DNA from: Paraburkholderia acidisoli
GTDB taxonomy: Bacteria > Pseudomonadota > Gammaproteobacteria > Burkholderiales > Burkholderiaceae
Assembly (NCBI RefSeq): GCF_009789675.1
Contig: NZ_CP046916.1
Span: 620,001 to 684,000, forward strand
Length of the DNA: 64,000 bases
Reading direction: 5' to 3'
Shown here: positions 8,543-64,000 of the stretch, piece after piece
Position numbering within the stretch: the first letter of the stretch is position 1
Layout: the number at the start of each line of letters is the position of its first letter
Notes under the pieces: model-generated
The model's database searches: none
The model's input: the letters and a program-made list of their open reading frames with translations, nothing else
Told to the model about the DNA's origin: nothing
Translations under genes and position numbers: made by a program

Positions 8543-9214
8543 TCAGGCGGTGATGGCCTTCATGTCGGCCATCAGTTCCTGCCAGCCGATGTTCGACGGC
8601 GAGATGCTTAGCGACGTCGAGCCAGTGGTGCGAGAGGACCGCGTAAGCCTCTTCGCAGTACGCCTTGAGGAACGCGTTCGTCATCTTCAGCGGCTTGCCC
8701 CACGAGACGCACGTGAAACCCGTCTCGTCGTAGGCAAGCAATGGCACCGCATGGCCGCCCCAACTGCCTGGCGCGCCATCCCCCACCGCGCCGCCCGGCG
8801 CCACGTCCACACGTCCTGAGTCTGCGCTGAAATCGGCAGGTTGATGCCGATGTAGGCCGCGCCAAAGTACTCGATCGAGAGTTTCAGTTCATTCAGGTTC
8901 GTGGGCATCAGCGCCGAGAACGCGATCGTGTCGGTGCCATCAGGTGTCGGGATACCGGTCGCGCTCCAGTACGCCAGCACGCGCGTCTCCACGGCGCCGT
9001 CGTCCTCTTTCGGGAAATCGCTCGTGGCCGAGTAAAGCGCGAGCGTCTGCGCTTCCGTAGGCTGAAAATCGACGCCATTGTTGGCGAACCACGTCTGTAC
9101 GATGTGGAACGCCGCGGCGGCCGTGCAGCAGCCGTAGCGGTCATTACCGAGGCTGTTCCACGATTTGACCGCCGTCATCCAGTCCACGGCTGGTTTCGGC
9201 TGCGCCACCATCAT
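8543..9214 (-). CDS. Papain-like/C39-type cysteine peptidase-like protein (two frame breaks)
   Basis: Reassembled from three frames: GNDRYGCCTAAAAFH near the N-terminus, WGGHAVPLLAYDETGFTCVS in the middle and ISPSNIGWQELMADMKAITA at the end. The Cys after GNDRYG and the His of GGHAV fit a papain-fold Cys/His pair, as in C39-like peptidases. Frame changes lie near 8807 (G2 for G3) and 8620. No signal peptide. It ends the late operon after patatin and lipoprotein genes; a role in host surface or protein modification is inference only. Confidence 0.6.
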
Positions 9215-43121: not shown

Positions 43122-43197
43122 TGGTGCCGGATGCAGGACTCGAACCCACCACCCACTGATTACAAATCAGTTGCTCTACCTGATGAGCTAATCCGGC
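43122..43197 (-). tRNA. tRNA-Thr: tRNA-Thr (anticodon UGU)
   Basis: 76 nt with CCA encoded. Acceptor GCCGGAT/ATCCGGC, D arm GCTC...GAGC, anticodon loop TTTGTAA closed by ACTGA/TCAGT, T-loop TTCGAGT. It decodes ACA/ACG-type Thr codons. Lies between a small gene and terS on the same strand. Confidence 0.95.
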
Positions 43198-43847: not shown

Positions 43848-43869
43848 GATTGAAGAGAGCGGCCCGCGC

Positions 43870-44480
43870 TGATTTCGAGCTTATGGGACTGTCTAAGACT
43901 TCGCTTCCCGTCCTGTAACGGATAGGTAATCGCCCCTACGGCGAACTCCATCGGGCTTTTGGGCTTTAACCCCGTTCCCGCGCGCAGTCAGCACCTGCGC
44001 ATTCGCTCTCAACGGAGGGGACTGGCATGCGAGTGCGCGCCACTCACCAATCCCGTGCTGCGCGCTCCGTTGAGAGGACCGGTTACGCCGGTCAAGCGAC
44101 CGCTTAGGGTATATGCGGTTCCGTCGTAACGTCACGGACCTTCCCAAACGCTGGCTCTAATTTTCTCCAGCCGCCACCGCAGTTTTTGGATTGCGGCTCC
44201 CGTCCGCCCAGCGACGCGCCGGACACTACCACATCAGCCCATCCAATACGCAAAGCGCAAGCTATGGGGGTGTCGCACCGTCGAGAGCGGCGGGATTCGA
44301 ACCCGCGATACACGGCTGCCGAGGCATTGCCGTAGTCCATCCCATCTCGACTTATCGCTCTCAAGCATGGCGAACCCTTCACCCCGGACGGCCAGTCCTC
44401 ACCTTTCGGCTGATAGGCACTTACACCAGACCCTAAAGGGATCGCCATGCGTGAAACGGCTGGTAACGAGTTCCAGCGCC
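43870..44480 (-). ncRNA. Large structured non-coding RNA locus with tRNA-like core
   Basis: No ORF with phage-like sequence fills these 600 bases. Minus-strand helices include GCATGGCGATCCCTT (44436-44450) with AAGGGTTCGCCATGC (44365-44379), 14 of 15 pairs, and the perfect 12-bp arms at 44006-44017 and 44065-44076. The latter enclose a nested hairpin stack (GGGATTGG/CCAGTCCC, GAGTG/CACTC). Short hairpins (GCCGC/GCGGC, CCGCA/TGCGG, GCGCAG/CTGCGC) fill the rest. A tRNA-like domain is at its centre (44282-44362). Exact ends and promoter are unknown. Confidence 0.65.
44282..44362 (-). ncRNA. tRNA-like domain with 12-nt anticodon-position loop
   Basis: Acceptor stem GAGAGCG/CGCTCTC (7 bp, extendable to 9), D-like arm AGTC/GACT, perfect T arm GCGGG-TTCGAAT-CCCGC. 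The anticodon-position stem ACGGC/GCCGT carries the 12-nt loop AATGCCTCGGCA instead of 7. No CCA is encoded. It cannot decode normally, so it is more likely a structural or processing element. Confidence 0.6.
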
Positions 44481-55279: not shown

Positions 55280-55564
55280 TTAAATTGTTGCTGCACGCGC
55301 CAACTTTTCCTTACCGCTGGAGCCGCCGATGGGTGGCTGGACGTCATCACTCGATTCGACATCGGTAATCTCGTTTGCCTCGATTTGCCGCTGACGAAGC
55401 AATTGTTGAAGGTCAGTGACAAGTTGATAGGAGGGGCGCGCTTTCCCGATCTTTCCGTTTTGGATCTCGGAGATGGTCGACTGAGCGCAATGCACCGACG
55501 CCGCAATTTCCGCCTGGGTCATGCCGAGGCGCTTCAATTCGAGAACGATGTGTTGGATGTCCAT
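55280..55564 (-). CDS. Cro-like HTH repressor, 94 aa
   Basis: IVLELKRLGMTQAEIAASVH followed by CAQSTISEIQNG is a canonical Cro/XRE helix-turn-helix. Divergent from the CI gene with 77 bp between, in which the shared operators lie. Probably the lytic-switch regulator. Confidence 0.8.
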   Translation of the reverse strand: MDIQHIVLELKRLGMTQAEIAASVHCAQSTISEIQNGKIGKARPSYQLVTDLQQLLRQRQIEANEITDVESSDDVQPPIGGSSGKEKLARAATI

Positions 55565-55573
55565 GAATCAAAG

Positions 55574-55613
55574 TATAGGCGTACCGATATCGGAATGCAA
55601 TAGGCAAACCTAT
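55574..55613. promoter_or_regulatory. Operators O1 and O2 in the switch region
   Basis: TATAGGCGTACCGATA (55574-55589) and ATAGGCAAACCTAT (55600-55613) lie between the divergent regulators. O1 matches 14 of 16 bases of the reverse of O3 at 56525-56540, pointing to one DNA-binding protein, presumably CI or the Cro-like protein. Confidence 0.7.
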
Positions 55614-55641
55614 GCCATTCTGTATCAGAATTCCGATAATT

Positions 55642-56405
55642 ATGAAAACTACGCTAGGATCACGTCTAAAGCAGGCGCGCAAAGAGGCGGGGCTAACTCA
55701 AAAAGAGTTGGCCGCAAAAACGGGTATCAAACAACCGACCGTCTCTGAGTTAGAAAACGATACCTATCAAGGATCGTCTTATGCGCCCCAGATCGCCGCA
55801 GTGCTCGGCGTGGAGGCTCTATGGCTCTCGTCCGGGAAGGGGCCGCAGCGCTCTCAGCACAATTCCTCGTCAGCCAATGGGCCGAGCAAGTCGCCAACGA
55901 CGCCCGTTATCGCTGGATTGGAAGCGGGAAAAGAAGCTACGATTGGGAAAACAAAGCCAGCAGCGTATGGGAATTTTGAACATGCGCCAGTGGGCTATCG
56001 AGAGATCCCAGTAATTAGTTACGTGCAGGCCGGCATGATGACAGAAGCAGTAGACCCATTCTCATTGGGCGACGGGTTTGAAACACTAACCACCGATCTG
56101 GATTTATCTGGGGGAGCGTTCGGCCTCATCATCAAAGGGCTGTCCATGTCCCCTGAATTCAAGGAGGGGGATAAGGTAATCATCGATCCGGCCGTTGCTC
56201 CGCACACGGTGATTTCGTTGTGGCTAAAAACACCGAAGAAGAGGCCACCTTCAAGAAGTACCGGCCGCGCGGGACGAGCGAGCGCGGCGAGATGATTTTC
56301 GAGCTGGTCCCGCTGAATGATGATTTCGCGACCCTTCATAGCGAGCGCGATCACCTTCACATTATCGGGGTCATGGTCGAGCATCGTAAGTACCGACGAC
56401 GCTGA
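55642..56405 (+). CDS. CI-type LexA-like repressor (frame-broken)
   Basis: About 254 residues. N-terminal XRE helix-turn-helix (RLKQARKEAGLTQKELAAKT, TVSELEND). S24 peptidase C-terminus: AG in VQAGMM as cleavage site, catalytic Ser in GLSMSPEF, Lys in VVAKNTEE. The frame changes near 56207 (one base missing). RecA-stimulated self-cleavage would link induction to DNA damage, fitting the SOS box at 7623. It should bind the operators on both sides of its own gene. Confidence 0.85.
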
Positions 56406-56437
56406 TCTCACGATTCAAAGCTCCCCTGTTTGCAACC

Positions 56438-56463
56438 AAGCCCGCCGCGAGCGGGCTTTTTTG
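56438..56463 (+). terminator. Rho-independent terminator of the repressor gene
   Basis: AAGCCCGC (56438-56445) pairs with GCGGGCTT (56451-56458) and runs into T6. It isolates the repressor transcript from the rightward promoter just after it. Confidence 0.9.
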
Positions 56464-56499
56464 CGCCCTCAACTAGCCAGAATAAAAATCTCCAAAAAA

Positions 56500-56542
56500 T
56501 ATCGGATCGCCTATTGACTCAAAGTATCGGCATGCCTATACT
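56500..56542 (+). promoter_or_regulatory. Rightward promoter with operators O3 and O4
   Basis: TTGACT (56514-56519), 17-bp spacer, TATACT (56537-56542): a strong sigma70 promoter. Operators TATCGGATCGCCTATT (56500-56515) and TATCGGCATGCCTATA (56525-56540) overlap the -35 and -10 elements with 25 bp between centres, so repressor binding should shut it off. It drives the non-coding locus and the early (+) operon. Confidence 0.85.
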
Positions 56543-56600
56543 TCACTCCATCAACAGCAGCAACCCAGCGCAACGGCGCGACGATCGGGGACAGCGATCG

Positions 56601-56609
56601 TGCTCTTTA
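56601..56609 (+). promoter_or_regulatory. rrn-type boxA antitermination element
   Basis: TGCTCTTTA followed by AAAAATT is the boxA leader signature of ribosomal operons (NusB/NusE binding). A 7-bp hairpin (56581-56601) sits just before it. It may allow the early transcript to read through RNA structure and terminators. Confidence 0.6.
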
Positions 56610-57196
56610 AAAATTGACGACCGATGAATAGATGCGAGCAATCGTGTCCAGCCCAATGCCTCGTGCGGCTGAAGTAAAAGCGCGAGAAATGGCGGCCTGA
56701 TGAGCTGCTACCGAAAGGCGCCCCGTGTCGATGGCGTGGTAATCGATGCAAACGTCCCCGGCCCGGAGCTGGCTTGCCAGGTGTTGCCGCGGCGGGGACG
56801 TAAAGCAATGTTGAGTGAATGACGCTGTGCGGCGTGGAGAGCAGACACGCAACGCAAGCAGGGAGCAGGCCTGCAACCCCTAGCGCATTGAATGGAAGCC
56901 CGTTGATTAATTACCTTTCGGTACGTTCCCGGCTTCGCGCAGCGTGGGTGGGGGTTCCAATAGCTAAAACTGGTAGCCAGATTCGCGACTGGCCACAGCG
57001 TCATTCACTGAGCAACGCAGCAGATTCAGGGAACGGGAATGCGCAGGCTGATGCGCCTTGTGAAAGCGATCGCAACGGAACTAAGTAACGCCATGGGGCG
57101 GCCCTAAAGCGATTCGCGAAGCTTGGGGAGGCACCGCAAGCCCGAAAAGTCATGCCAGAGATCAGCACCGGCCCCGTTCCCTGAGTTTGTTTTATT

Positions 57197-57313
57197 GCCG
57201 GATGAGTCCGTTGGCCGACGGTATGAATCAATAAGAGTTGCGTTGCGGTTAGCTACCGCTTTTCTGGTTACCCAGACACAACCCAAGGGGTTCGAATCCC
57301 CGATCCGGCTCCA
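57197..57313 (+). ncRNA. tRNA-like 3' domain of the rightward RNA
   Basis: GCCGGAT (57197-57203) pairs with ATCCGGC (57303-57309), then T and encoded CCA. T arm GGGG-TTCGAAT-CCCC is intact. Between them are a CCGT/ACGG hairpin, GCGGT/ACCGC and TCTGG/CCAGA hairpins but no 7-nt anticodon loop. The acceptor stem equals that of the phage tRNA-Thr. Likely recognised by tRNA-processing enzymes. Confidence 0.6.
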
Positions 57314-57404
57314 TTCAATACAGCAATCTAAATCGCGCCCGTTCCAACGAGTAGGCGCCGCTTGGGTGTTGTCAAACAGAAAGTTAGGACAACTGGAGAT
57401 ATCT

Positions 57405-57779
57405 ATGAGCGAAATCAATAGCGCAATCGAACTGCCGGAACTCCGCGAAGGCGAAATCTACCTCTGCGGCCTCGTCAACGGTAATGGCAGCGTGACGCAC
57501 ACGATCTTGCTTCCGGGTGATAACGACGACGCCAACTGGAGTGCGCAGCTCGAATGGGCGAAAAGCATCGGCGGCGATCTGCCGACGCGCGTGGAACTCG
57601 CAGTTGCGTTCGAGCAGCATCGCGATCAGTTTCAGCGCGACTGGTATTGGTCGAATCAGGATCACGAGGACGATAGCGCCTACGCCTGGTATCAGGACTT
57701 CGGCGACGGCTACCAGAACGACGACCTCAAGAGCGACGACGTTTGCCGCGCGCGGGCCGTCCGCAGATTAATTATTTAG
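57405..57779 (+). CDS. DUF1566 (C-type-lectin-like) protein 1, 124 aa
   Basis: ELREGEIYLCGLVNGNGSVT, HTILLPGDND, WAKSIGGDLPTRVEL, DWYWSNQ and the end DDVCRARAVRR are the DUF1566/FGE-like signature seen in phage ligand-binding proteins and in targets of diversity-generating retroelements. Residues after AYAWYQ differ strongly from the two paralogues at 62.4-63.3 kb, while the flanks are almost the same. First gene after the structured RNA; GGAG before the ATG. Confidence 0.8.
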   Translation: MSEINSAIELPELREGEIYLCGLVNGNGSVTHTILLPGDNDDANWSAQLEWAKSIGGDLPTRVELAVAFEQHRDQFQRDWYWSNQDHEDDSAYAWYQDFGDGYQNDDLKSDDVCRARAVRRLII

Positions 57780-57817: not shown

Positions 57818-58290
57818 ATGAGGGAGATCCCGCTGTCAAAGGGCTTGACCGCTATTGTGGATGACGAAGACTTCGATACCTTGCGAGGCTTCAATTGGTT
57901 TGTATCGAGTTGGGGATATGCGGTAAGGAATGCGGGTGGAAAACAAATTCGTATGCATCGACAAATAATGGGTGTCGAAAACAATCGGCAAATTTTGATC
58001 GATCATATCAATATGGATCGACTTGACAATCGACGATCAAATCTGCGTTCCTGCACGCAGTCACAGAATCTTTCAAATCGCCCTCTCCGAAAAATTCCAC
58101 AGGATTCAAAGGCGTCACAAAAAGGAATAAAAAATGGACGCCGAGGATTTTTTACAAGGGGCGTATGAGACATCTGGGTTGTTATACGACACCTGAAGAG
58201 GCACACGAAGTCTATTGCTTGTGGGCTGATTTGATTCAGGGCGAATTCGCGCATTATGGAGTGAAAGCATGTCCCTCTACGCCGACTTAA
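57818..58290 (+). CDS. HNH/AP2-type homing endonuclease (frame-broken)
   Basis: MREIPLSKGLTAIVDDEDFD, HRQIMGVENNRQILIDHINM and DRLDNRRSNLRSCTQSQN are the HNH core (HR..D.iN.ldNR..NLR). After adding one A at 58090-58094 it runs on as the AP2-like NSTGFKGVTKRNKKWTPRI and HLGCYTTPEEAHEVY, about 158 residues. GGAG precedes the ATG. Adjacent to DUF1566, as is the other HNH gene. Confidence 0.8.
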
Positions 58291-58440: not shown

Positions 58441-58575
58441 ATGCCCACATGGATTTACTGGACCGCACTTATTGCTGCGGCAGACGTAGCACTGGTGCTG
58501 TTTTTCAAAGGTGCAGCGCGAAAAGATGAGCCGCGCGAGTTTCGGCGGATTCGAGCAATGGAGGGGCCGCAATGA
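58441..58575 (+). CDS. Small membrane protein, 44 aa
   Basis: WIYWTALIAAADVALVLFF is one membrane helix, followed by a basic/acidic tail. ATGA overlap with the acyl carrier protein gene. Confidence 0.6.
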   Translation: MPTWIYWTALIAAADVALVLFFKGAARKDEPREFRRIRAMEGPQ

Positions 58576-58817
58576 GCACGATCCACCAAGGCAACATATC
58601 CGAACGCCTCAAGAAGTGTATCGCCGAGATAACGGGCCTCAACGCTGAAGAGATCGCCGACACATCTTCTTTCGCTGACCTCGGTTGCGATTCCATCGAA
58701 CTACTCGAAATCGTAATGGCTGTGGAGGACGAATTTGGGATCGAAGTTTCGGATGACGACGGCGATAAGTTGAAGACGGTTCAGCAGGCGATTGATTACG
58801 TTACGGCGAAAGTTTAA
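58572..58817 (+). CDS. Acyl carrier protein
   Basis: 81 residues with the phosphopantetheine motif GCDSIELLEIV (Ser in D-S-I-E), preceded by ISERLKKCIAEITGLNAEEI and followed by EDEFGIEVSDDD: a full ACP four-helix pattern including helix II-III. ACPs carry fatty acyl or other acyl chains. No acyl synthase gene is present in the window, so it would use host enzymes or act on host lipid metabolism; an acyltransferase and a patatin are elsewhere in the genome. Confidence 0.88.
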   Translation: MSTIHQGNISERLKKCIAEITGLNAEEIADTSSFADLGCDSIELLEIVMAVEDEFGIEVSDDDGDKLKTVQQAIDYVTAKV

Positions 58818-62447: not shown

Positions 62448-62813
62448 ATGCAGCAACTTCAAATTCCGCCGCTCGAAGAAGGCGAAATCTACATCGGTGC
62501 GATCGGCGACAAGAATGGCGATTTTTATCATGTGATCTTGCTGCCCGGCGACAACGGCTATGCACCGTGGCAGGAGCAGATGGATTGGGCAAAGAGCATC
62601 GGCGGTGATCTTCCGAATCGCATCGAACAGGCCATGCTCTGGGCGAACCACAAGGATCAGTTCGAGCAGGACTGGTACTGGAGCAACGAGACGTATCACC
62701 GCAATGACGCCTACGCCTGGTATCAGGGCTTCGGCATCGGCGGCCAGAGCTACTACGGCCACAAGGACGACGACAGGTGCCGAGCGCGGGCCGTCCGCAG
62801 ATTGCCCATTTAA
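62448..62813 (+). CDS. DUF1566 protein 2, 121 aa
   Basis: Same domain as the gene at 57405 (EEGEIYIGAIGDKNGDFYHV, WAKSIGGDLPNRIEQ, WYWSNET, CRARAVRR). Variable centre GFGIGGQSYYGHKDDD. Encodes one extra residue there. Function likely ligand or receptor binding. Confidence 0.8.
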   Translation: MQQLQIPPLEEGEIYIGAIGDKNGDFYHVILLPGDNGYAPWQEQMDWAKSIGGDLPNRIEQAMLWANHKDQFEQDWYWSNETYHRNDAYAWYQGFGIGGQSYYGHKDDDRCRARAVRRLPI

Positions 62814-62842: not shown

Positions 62843-63307
62843 ATGACGATCACGCTTGAGGCCATCGAGGCCAAGCAATCGGAGATTTCGAAGTTGATCG
62901 AATCGTTCAAGAAACAGTCAACTCGCAGCACCATTACGATTTTGGGCGCGACGATCAAGCTGGAGGCTGGCGAACATTACGCCGGCATCATTCTCGGAGA
63001 CGACGGGCAACCGCTTCATCACTTGATTCTTCTCCCCGGCGACGTAGACGAAAAATCGTGGTCGGACGCGAAGTCGTGGGCCGCAGAGCAGGGCGGGGAA
63101 TTGCCGACTCGACGCGAACAATCACTGCTATTCGCGAATTTGAAACAGTGTTTCGAGTCACGTTATTACTGGTCGGCGGAAGAGCGTGAATCGGATTCCG
63201 CCTACGCCTGGTGTCAGGACTTCGACGACGGCTTCCAGTACGACGGCCACAAGGCCAGCAGCGGTTGCCGAGCGCGGGCCGTCCGCAGGATAGCGGTAGG
63301 AGCATGA
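62843..63307 (+). CDS. DUF1566 protein 3 with coiled-coil N-terminus, 154 aa
   Basis: N-terminal helix MTITLEAIEAKQSEISKLIE, then DUF1566 (HLILLPGDVD, WAAEQGGELPTRREQ, YYWSAEE, GCRARAVRR) with variable centre DFDDGFQYDGHKASS. Third paralogue, directly before an HNH gene. Confidence 0.8.
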   Translation: MTITLEAIEAKQSEISKLIESFKKQSTRSTITILGATIKLEAGEHYAGIILGDDGQPLHHLILLPGDVDEKSWSDAKSWAAEQGGELPTRREQSLLFANLKQCFESRYYWSAEERESDSAYAWCQDFDDGFQYDGHKASSGCRARAVRRIAVGA

Positions 63308-63308
63308 C

Positions 63309-63770
63309 TTGGCGACCATCGAAAGCCTGATGAGTCGCACGCGAAAAGTCGGCGACTGTCTTGAGTTCACAGGTTACATCTGCAAAGCGGGCTATGGCCT
63401 CGTTTGGCACAACGGCAAGAACCGACTGGCCCATAGGGTGTCGTTTGATCTTCATCACGGAACGATTACGGATGGACGCGATGTGATGCATTCCTGTGAC
63501 AACAGAAAATGCCTCAATCCAAAGCATTTGAATCTCGGGACGCGATTAGAAAACATGCAGGACATGATCGCGAAGAGAAGAGACAAACATCCCTGCGGAT
63601 TGCACTCTGGAATGTCGAAAATCACGCCCGAGATTGCCATAGAAATCAGGCGTAGATATACGCCATATAGTCGGACGGATAGTTCTTGCGCTTTGGGGCG
63701 CGAGTTTGGCATTTCACAGGCCGCAGTATGGGCAATTATCACCGGCAAGACATGGGCTGATTGCTCGTAG
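63309..63770 (+). CDS. HNH endonuclease-like protein, 153 aa
   Basis: Core NRLAHRVSFDLHHG, VMHSCDNRKCLNPKHLNLGT and LENMQDMIAKRRDKH are the HNH motif of small phage homing endonucleases; C-terminal helix-turn-helix GISQAAVWAIITGKTW. TTG at 63309 or ATG at 63330. Its 3' third is duplicated at positions 1-159. Confidence 0.8.
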   Translation: MATIESLMSRTRKVGDCLEFTGYICKAGYGLVWHNGKNRLAHRVSFDLHHGTITDGRDVMHSCDNRKCLNPKHLNLGTRLENMQDMIAKRRDKHPCGLHSGMSKITPEIAIEIRRRYTPYSRTDSSCALGREFGISQAAVWAIITGKTWADCS

Positions 63771-64000
63771 CTACTTTGGTCTGCTGCGTCAGGCTAGCGC
63801 GAGTCATCAGGACCGCGCTGCACTAGCCAATGTGGTCCGCAGTCAAGGTCATGCGGTCGACGGCGCGCTCACGAAGAGCTATCGACGGGCACTCCATCAG
63901 TAACCCTTTCCGTCGGCAGCAAATCCCGCTGTCGGCGTGTGTTGAGGCGCCTGTCCGGGCCTCCTTTTTCGAGAGACATGATGGAATTCACCGTCCCGCA
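63612..64000. repeat. Direct terminal repeat, right copy
   Basis: Identical to 1-389. It includes the end of the HNH gene, the structured non-coding segment (63771-63943), its terminator (63944-63969) and the first bases of the gene at 367. Confidence 0.97.

Follow-up and report, generated by a model that had tools for sequence, protein, structure and literature searches.

A conserved boxA-led RNA core and exchangeable structured modules behind a PL-type promoter of a Paraburkholderia prophage

In phage lambda, the promoter PL lies downstream of the co-directional cI gene, and nutL occupies the same place in its operon as the RNA described here. The put RNA binds RNA polymerase directly, the boxC of Escherichia coli rRNA leaders reads UCUGUGUGGG, and the universally conserved part of GOLLD is its 3' region. 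According to the accessible text of the respective papers, put of phage HK022 is an element of about 70 nt with two stem-loops that acts without a dedicated protein (PMC9378689, in whose accessible text the word boxA is absent), the rRNA leader carries boxB, boxA and boxC and is associated with the rrn antitermination complex (PMC10250234), and GOLLD and ROOL are large phage RNAs of unknown function that often lie near tRNAs (PMC12286853). Here, we describe an RNA in a Paraburkholderia acidisoli prophage that shares features with each of these systems.

Promoter, operators and folding of the RNA

The window, that is, the whole stretch of 64,000 nt analysed here, spans roughly one unit of a prophage of ~63.6 kb that is repeated in tandem, and its positions 1-389 are identical to 63612-64000. 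The RNA region occurs a second time on the contig, 63,616 bp upstream. The RNA stretch is identical in both prophage copies, which over 3.9 kb differ by 4 mismatches and 6 gaps, some of them within the repressor gene. The prophage also carries two int-alpA RNAs (RF02996; 29671-29735 and 35079-35146, both on the minus strand). The genes and sites around the RNA are as follows.

55280..55564, minus strand: cro-like regulator gene (PHROG 6831, transcriptional regulator, E = 1.1e-14)
55576..55589, minus strand: third exact operator TATCGGNNNGCCTA, in the gap between the cro-like and repressor genes, 0 mismatches
55612..56295, plus strand: phage repressor gene (PHROG 4, E = 3.9e-32), in a stretch that varies between the two prophage copies
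56438..56464, plus strand: G+C-rich inverted repeat with a T-run 3' of the repressor gene, terminator-like by eye
56500-56513 and 56525-56538, plus strand: two operator copies TATCGGNNNGCCTA at the promoter, 0 mismatches
56514..56542, plus strand: sigma-70-like promoter TTGACT-17-TATACT, 10 of 12 consensus bases
57405..57779, plus strand: first gene of the operon (PHROG 4245, function unknown, E = 2.5e-7)

Promoter-like sites are no commoner in this region than in shuffled sequence (6 versus a shuffle mean of 6.8), so the case for the promoter rests on the operators. The exact operator occurs at three places in the 64 kb and is confined to this promoter and the cro-repressor gap, which bears out the claim of an earlier note on this DNA that the promoter carries two repressor operators. 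That note was also right that the promoter does not lead into cro. Since the cro-like gene lies on the opposite strand, the operon is PL-type and not PR-type, and the promoter follows a co-directional repressor gene, as lambda PL follows cI. The description of the RNA as heading the rightward lytic operon therefore holds for the head of a lytic-type operon but not for the side, which is PL. Upstream of the core described below, promoter-like sites scoring at least 9/12 were found in 8 of 17 sequences in an uncontrolled count. An exonuclease gene lies farther downstream on the same strand as the promoter and the RNA. In addition, the early operon includes a gene for an acyl carrier protein-like product (58572-58817, plus strand; PHROG 5934, E = 3.6e-17) and, in the 3' parts of genes, three repeats (57677-57766, 62708-62803 and 63199-63288; DNA identity 81-86%).

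About 770 bases 3' of the promoter contain no recognisable gene, as previously claimed, and six ORFs of 76-104 aa in the region were without Pfam or PHROGs matches at E up to 0.1. A degraded protein gene was rejected on the lack of such matches and on the length of the P2 loop of the core, which is 13 or 14 nt depending on the relative. When positions 56400-57500 were compared with 4227 Rfam families at E up to 5, the RNA was unmatched, GOLLD, ROOL and OLE included, in line with the statement that it could not be placed in GOLLD or ROOL; the only two hits were weak and upstream of the RNA (56400-56464 and 56437-56489). We also rejected a hammerhead ribozyme, for which the core-like CTGATGAG...CGAAA is altered in relatives and a stem is missing (by eye).

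Four helices had been proposed, with 16 perfect pairs (56814-56829/56994-57009), 12 perfect pairs (57026-57037/57173-57184), 9 pairs (56583-56591/57297-57305) and 7 pairs (GCCGGAT 57197-57203/ATCCGGC 57303-57309, by eye and fold). By a rough chance expectation, 770 nt should hold ~1 perfect 9-mer, ~0.02 12-mers and < 1e-4 16-mers. Homologues back the 16- and 12-bp helices, whereas the 9-bp long-range closure is unsupported and probably due to chance; it competes with the hairpin 5' of boxA and with the T-arm. The folding energy had a z-score of -1.9 for the whole RNA (20 shuffles), -4.2 for 56809-57014, -3.0 for 57020-57190, -1.3 for the core (21 of 200 shuffles as good) and -1.4 for the 3' end (18 of 200 as good). 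Taken alone, folding energy is weak support for part of the RNA.

The boxA-led core and its pseudoknot

The 5' part of the RNA contains the following elements.

56581..56601, plus strand: hairpin immediately 5' of boxA (ACGATCG/CGATCGT), from complementarity
56601..56610, plus strand: boxA TGCTCTTTAA, rrn-type
56623..56750, plus strand: conserved core of ~130 nt, five helices and an H-type pseudoknot, from the R1 model and covariation
56631-56637/56642-56648, plus strand: P1
56660-56666/56680-56686, plus strand: P2
56691-56696/56704-56709, plus strand: P3
56711-56712/56717-56718, plus strand: P4
56725-56732/56742-56749, plus strand: P5
56649..56671, plus strand: pseudoknot, CAGCC 56649-56653 with GGCTG 56667-56671 in the P2 loop; all cells paired, covaries
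56752..56801, plus strand: P6, long two-part hairpin with an internal loop, outermost pair kept in 15 of 17 sequences

The blastn search of 50,697 phage records returned one relative, Burkholderia phage Bcep176, and that of plasmids gave no match. Among 144 genomes of the genus, a DNA match was obtained in five at E 0.001; the core was present in the own genome and in one other (G104) only, and the remaining matches were two short ones elsewhere and one, in genome G085, that shares module F (see below). The covariance model R1 was built from the window, Bcep176, G104 and one IMG/VR contig, and 13 of 33 pairs were changed on both sides in this initial alignment. R1 matched 5 of 398 genomes of the family, the own genome included and one match being weak and divergent. 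In an order-level draw it matched 3 of 399 genomes at E 0.01, of which the own genome alone was taken as true. Of 20 contigs obtained with a first viral pattern, L016 (the Bcep176 sequence) and L026 were true and the other 18 look protein-coding by eye; a second pattern gave 13 viral stretches. Collectively, the relatives in Bcep176, Burkholderiaceae prophages and IMG/VR contigs comprise 17 distinct sequences, after exclusion of duplicates (L016, L051 and L053, and the second copies L006, L030, L035, L042, L044, L045 and L059) and of divergent or chance matches (L036, L040 and L043, the last from Schlesneria, scoring 18.5 bits and taken as chance). Two further candidates, L106 and L107, have neither boxA nor the P2-loop motif by eye and were rejected.

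Two-sided changes were found in 17 of the 30 core pairs among the 17 sequences, and 96.0% of the core cells were paired versus 84.9% in shuffled and 28-45% in slid controls, in an alignment that leans towards the structure because it was fitted to R1. RNAalifold on an independent MAFFT alignment gave a structure of 40 pairs, 17 of them with two-sided changes, that contains P2, P3 and P6 and lacks P1, P4 and P5; P5 was replaced by a pairing of an invariant GCGCC with the P5 loop, and in this alignment P1 and partly P5 were misaligned by eye. Many pairs of P6 are changed on both sides. The P1 loops vary in length and sequence, the P3 and P5 loops are strongly conserved, and the P2 loop is A-rich besides GGCTG. 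The other strand of the pseudoknot lies between P1 and P2, and all 85 of its cells are paired across the 17 sequences (88.1% shuffled, 13-60% slid), with the variants CACCC/GGGTG, CTGCC/GGCAG, CCTCC/GGAGG and one G-U. By eye, even the divergent L040 and L036 keep it as CTACC/GGTAG and CTGCC/GGCAG. Two pseudoknot pairs have two-sided changes, a number that 73 of 500 shuffles reached and that is not significant alone; the covariation score was reached by none of 500. These results demonstrate that the RNA is real and conserved and that the core is a structure with covariation, the check that the earlier note had named.

The boxA is likewise kept. In all 17 sequences, GCTCTTTAA is found 20-22 nt 5' of the core with no more than 1 mismatch, while in random windows on the core loci even two mismatches to it were reached in only 40 of 5100; the bases between boxA and core vary while the spacing is constant. 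The claim of an rrn-type boxA was thus correct. The hairpin preceding it occupies the position of the rrn boxB, and relatives too have hairpins upstream of boxA (by eye). Among the sequences in which a script recognised both elements, the distance from the end of the -10 to boxA was 44-58 nt in five (58 nt in the window; also L046, L041, L040 and L036) and 145 nt in L039. Genes can also precede the core: in Bcep176 the annotated gp22-gp27 do so on the same strand, and in L038 an ORF seems, by eye, to separate a promoter-like repeat from the core.

At six other loci (L070, L083, L099, L085, L102 and L105) we observed boxA-led leaders with the same kind of promoter and different cores, of which one type seems to retain P5/P6-like hairpins (by eye). 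They were rejected as core relatives, the best R1 match over 11 loci being E = 0.048. Furthermore, it was noticed post hoc that AAGCAAAAG, found 3' of the rrn boxA in the host rrn leaders L060-L065, also occurs in the P2 loop of L052 and L057.

Modules 3' of the core

Behind the core, the RNA of the window continues with three further elements.

56809..57014, plus strand: module B2, closed by the 16-bp helix, interior varying between phages
57026..57184, plus strand: module F, a 12-bp outer stem and two hairpins with an insert, from the R2 model and covariation
57197..57313, plus strand: tRNA-like 3' end with an acceptor-like 7-bp stem, the T-arm GGGGTTCGAATCCCC and TCCA, from complementarity

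By eye, the stretch 3' of the core differs among relatives. The closing helix and last hairpin of B2 are common to the window, L052, L056 and L057; L058 has the B2 arm sequence in a stretch that looks coding by eye and was rejected. One hairpin module follows the core in six relatives (L050, L046, L055, L037, L047 and L038), and in L039 the core and one further hairpin are followed by the first gene. Module D, CGGCGCGGCGNCNNNAAATAGCCCGTA, occurs twice in Bcep176 and also in L038, L052 and L056, and 41 stretches of viral contigs (L068-L105, L004, L052 and L056) contain it within a long hairpin; some copies lie directly 3' of a promoter-like site without boxA (by eye). Its exact key words are absent from the window, and no Rfam match lay on it in the loci searched. 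We also observed a Betaproteobacteria-1 RNA (RF02932) ~230-240 nt downstream of module D in L104 and L089, and an RT-15 RNA (RF03018) on the strand of the core, ~3-4 kb downstream of it, in L046 (7223-7405), L050 (7384-7566) and L037 (3846-4028, minus strand).

Module F consists of the 12-bp helix enclosing AATGCGCAGGCTGATGCGC and, 97 nt on, a hairpin with a loop complementary to the first; the hairpins read TGCGC-AGGCTGAT-GCGC, insert, GCC...GGC, with the complementary loop sequences GCTGAT/ATCAGC. The R2 model, built without the window, matched 57029-57181 (E = 6.1e-15) and a second copy in the prophage at 43853-44012 on the minus strand (E = 1.5e-7), located between the two tRNA genes of the prophage, tRNA-Gly (44280-44363) and tRNA-Thr (43122-43197). 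A borderline match at 8822-8916 (plus strand, E = 0.0012) was absent at E 0.01 in the whole-genome search. In the window, the defining pairs of F are intact except for a mismatch in hairpin 2, and all 9 pairs of the tested part of the outer stem are formed.

The pattern AATGYGCAGRCTGATGYGC was found in at least 120 stretches of viral contigs. For the outer-stem test, hairpin 2 was anchored by its motif alone, and duplicates and hits without this motif were left out, giving 95 distinct hits of the 129 listed, window included. These had a mean of 7.83 of 9 pairs versus 5.50 after permutation (maximum 5.99 in 1,000 permutations), and 86 of the 95 had at least 7; for the 45 distinct stems among the matches listed, the values were 7.47 and 4.86. 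In 20 aligned copies (A7), two-sided changes were found in 8 of 9 outer-stem pairs, a count that is biased because the copies were selected by outer-stem complementarity, in 3 of 5 pairs of hairpin 2 and in 1 of 6 kissing pairs; hairpin 1 is uninformative because it was fixed by the search pattern. In 99 copies among the matches listed, a T at the first kissing pair faced A in 3 of 4 cases and a C faced G in 87 of 95 (Fisher p = 0.003 for the 98 C/T cases, with relatedness left out of account).

Module F recurs in many enteric phages. One copy with its flanks matched 121 of 50,697 phage records by blastn; among 30 places listed, 19 were without a feature, 7 lay under a hypothetical protein and 4 were in unannotated records. 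Of 5,426 E. coli genomes, 423 had partial matches to a megablast query, none of the 12 places listed overlapping a feature. HK620 has F between its annotated late promoter pR' and the terminator tQ; in this phage as well as in CUS-3, the module sits between Q and the holin gene. F is free of Rfam matches in the window, and so are seven F loci at the gathering threshold. One leader in genome G085 combines boxA with two F modules and has no R1 match, and none of the other core loci has F beside the core (L049 has a weak F elsewhere, E = 1.4e-5). Furthermore, the boxA motif [CT]GCTCTTT occurred within 62 nt upstream of F in 17 of 107 distinct upstreams from viral contigs among the matches listed versus 0.5 expected, and at 11-12 nt from the same point in 15 of the 17, many of these upstreams being near-identical relatives.

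The tRNA-like end is the least supported part. Its sequence is present with CCA as claimed, but ARAGORN and Rfam (E up to 5) called no tRNA there, its fold has the acceptor-like stem, the T-arm and other hairpins only, with no recognised cloverleaf with an anticodon, and no homologue was found in the genus genomes, the own genome or the core relatives. The 3' 26-mer occurs in its own genome, at up to 3 mismatches, in the two prophage copies only, and an attP (a tRNA 3' end serving as prophage attachment site) was rejected on this ground. Taken together, the RNA looks like a chain of exchangeable modules, not one giant fold. The earlier note's giant structured RNA is thus untranslated and structured but modular, and the part shared between phages is the 5' core, whose pseudoknot that note had not listed.

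Possible function and relation to known systems

We propose that the RNA is the untranslated leader of a phage PL-type early operon in which boxA and the core recruit the host rrn antitermination machinery, a reading to which we give about even weight. In the lysogen, the repressor would shut the promoter through the operators common with the cro side. Upon induction, the first RNA out would carry boxA and the pseudoknotted core; boxA may recruit the host rrn-type antitermination complex, NusB/S10 included, and the core may stabilise this complex or bind RNA polymerase directly, as put does. The polymerase could thereby cross several hundred untranslated, Rho-exposed bases into the operon. B2, F and the tRNA-like end would form a payload of folded RNAs exchanged among phages, possibly released through cleavage by RNase P or RNase E at the tRNA-like end.

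The fixed spacing between boxA and core, the PL position and the occurrence of boxA before different structured RNAs argue most strongly for a role in transcription. Against certainty stand, above all, the lack of a clear downstream terminator signal, the genes preceding the core in Bcep176 and a function that is read from sequence. Terminator-like sites downstream of the core in 13 phages (63 kb) numbered 5 on the operon strand and 4 on the opposite strand versus 2.4 in mononucleotide shuffles, no clear excess, and the window had 9 on both strands versus 12.0 in shuffles; since such sites are not clearly enriched, any termination resisted would be Rho-dependent. Weak sites were found at 57245, inside the RNA, and at 57973, none being listed between the end of the RNA and the first gene; the inverted repeat at 56438..56464 was not among the sites of the scan. 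Up to 4.2 kb behind the core in 15 phages, the largest real protein family occurred in 7, so no family is kept there and no N-like gene is apparent; a group of 8 was rejected as the core itself read as protein.

The lack of a listed terminator between RNA and first gene also bears on a different reading, in which the whole 770 nt acts in trans as one early-lytic molecule in the manner of GOLLD or ROOL and the downstream genes are incidental. Its length, the folding of B2 and F, the tRNA-like 3' end and the presence of F apart from the core in many phages, and twice in this prophage, are consistent with such a molecule. However, the 5' core is the only part conserved between phages, L039 has no more than the core and one hairpin in front of its first gene, and the Rfam search up to E 5 was negative; we regard a trans-acting RNA as unlikely.

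It is rather improbable, in our view, that only the 5' core is functional and that the stretch from B2 to the tRNA-like end is mosaic debris from a phage tRNA island. The perfect closing helix of B2 and the nearly intact pairs of F in the window point away from decay, although F also lies in the prophage's own tRNA island, has a tRNA no more than 600 nt away in 12 of 124 contigs among the matches listed versus 4% of random positions, and is here followed by an end unrecognised as a tRNA. Least probable is a cis-acting attenuator or riboswitch-like element whose pseudoknot senses a host signal and adjusts expression of the first genes, for although the pseudoknot with its conserved A-rich loop, the conserved P3 and P5 loops and the leader position would suit it, the core of the window ends ~600 bases short of the first gene, from which variable modules separate it, and so cannot directly mask the ribosome site there, and the downstream gene differs between phages.

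Returning to the antitermination leader, we tentatively suggest a broader picture, which we hold to be possible but doubtful: Burkholderiaceae phages may have a new class of RNA-based antitermination in which boxA and the pseudoknotted core hijack the host complex for rRNA transcription to produce a modular giant RNA and perhaps to assist its folding. The cassettes of this RNA, among them the kissing-loop module F of enteric phages and tRNA islands, would pass back and forth between early leaders, late leaders and tRNA islands. With the boxA-led core and module F, neither of which has an Rfam 15 match, at least two structured elements are added to those of phages, and F is largely unannotated in more than 100 other phage sequences. 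The leader offers an explanation, open to testing, of how long untranslated RNA is transcribed by phages despite Rho, and the location of F in HK620 and CUS-3, together with the E. coli matches, makes a role of such RNAs testable in laboratory E. coli. The accessible text of the literature on phage RNAs and antitermination (PMC9378689, PMC12286853, PMC10250234 and PMC13192938) gave no description of the leader or of module F, and the sequence of F itself led to no paper; this is no proof of novelty because most subscription papers lay outside the scope of the search.

Like GOLLD and ROOL, this is a large phage RNA; unlike GOLLD, its conserved part is the 5' core, and what follows differs among relatives. 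It shares boxA with lambda nutL but has no conserved boxB-like hairpin, the P1 loop being variable, and lacks an apparent N-like partner. The likeness to put of the lambdoid phage HK022 lies in the start of a PL early transcript, a compact fold and no apparent phage protein, and the position just behind an early promoter is found in the window but not in Bcep176. In contrast to put, the core with P6 measures ~180 nt, is boxA-led and known from sequence alone, and precedes hundreds of structured bases; its five helices and pseudoknot set it apart from the two stem-loops by which put is described. Behind boxA, no boxC was seen by eye where host rrn leaders have GTGTGGG, and rrn mimicry beyond boxA was rejected, the core model being unmatched in six host rrn leaders. 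With these leaders the RNA has in common the rrn-type boxA, the preceding hairpin and the untranslated structured RNA behind, and their AAGCAAAAG recurs in the P2 loop of some core relatives. Overall, the RNA appears to be a phage leader of a new kind, with a transcription signal borrowed from the rRNA of the host.
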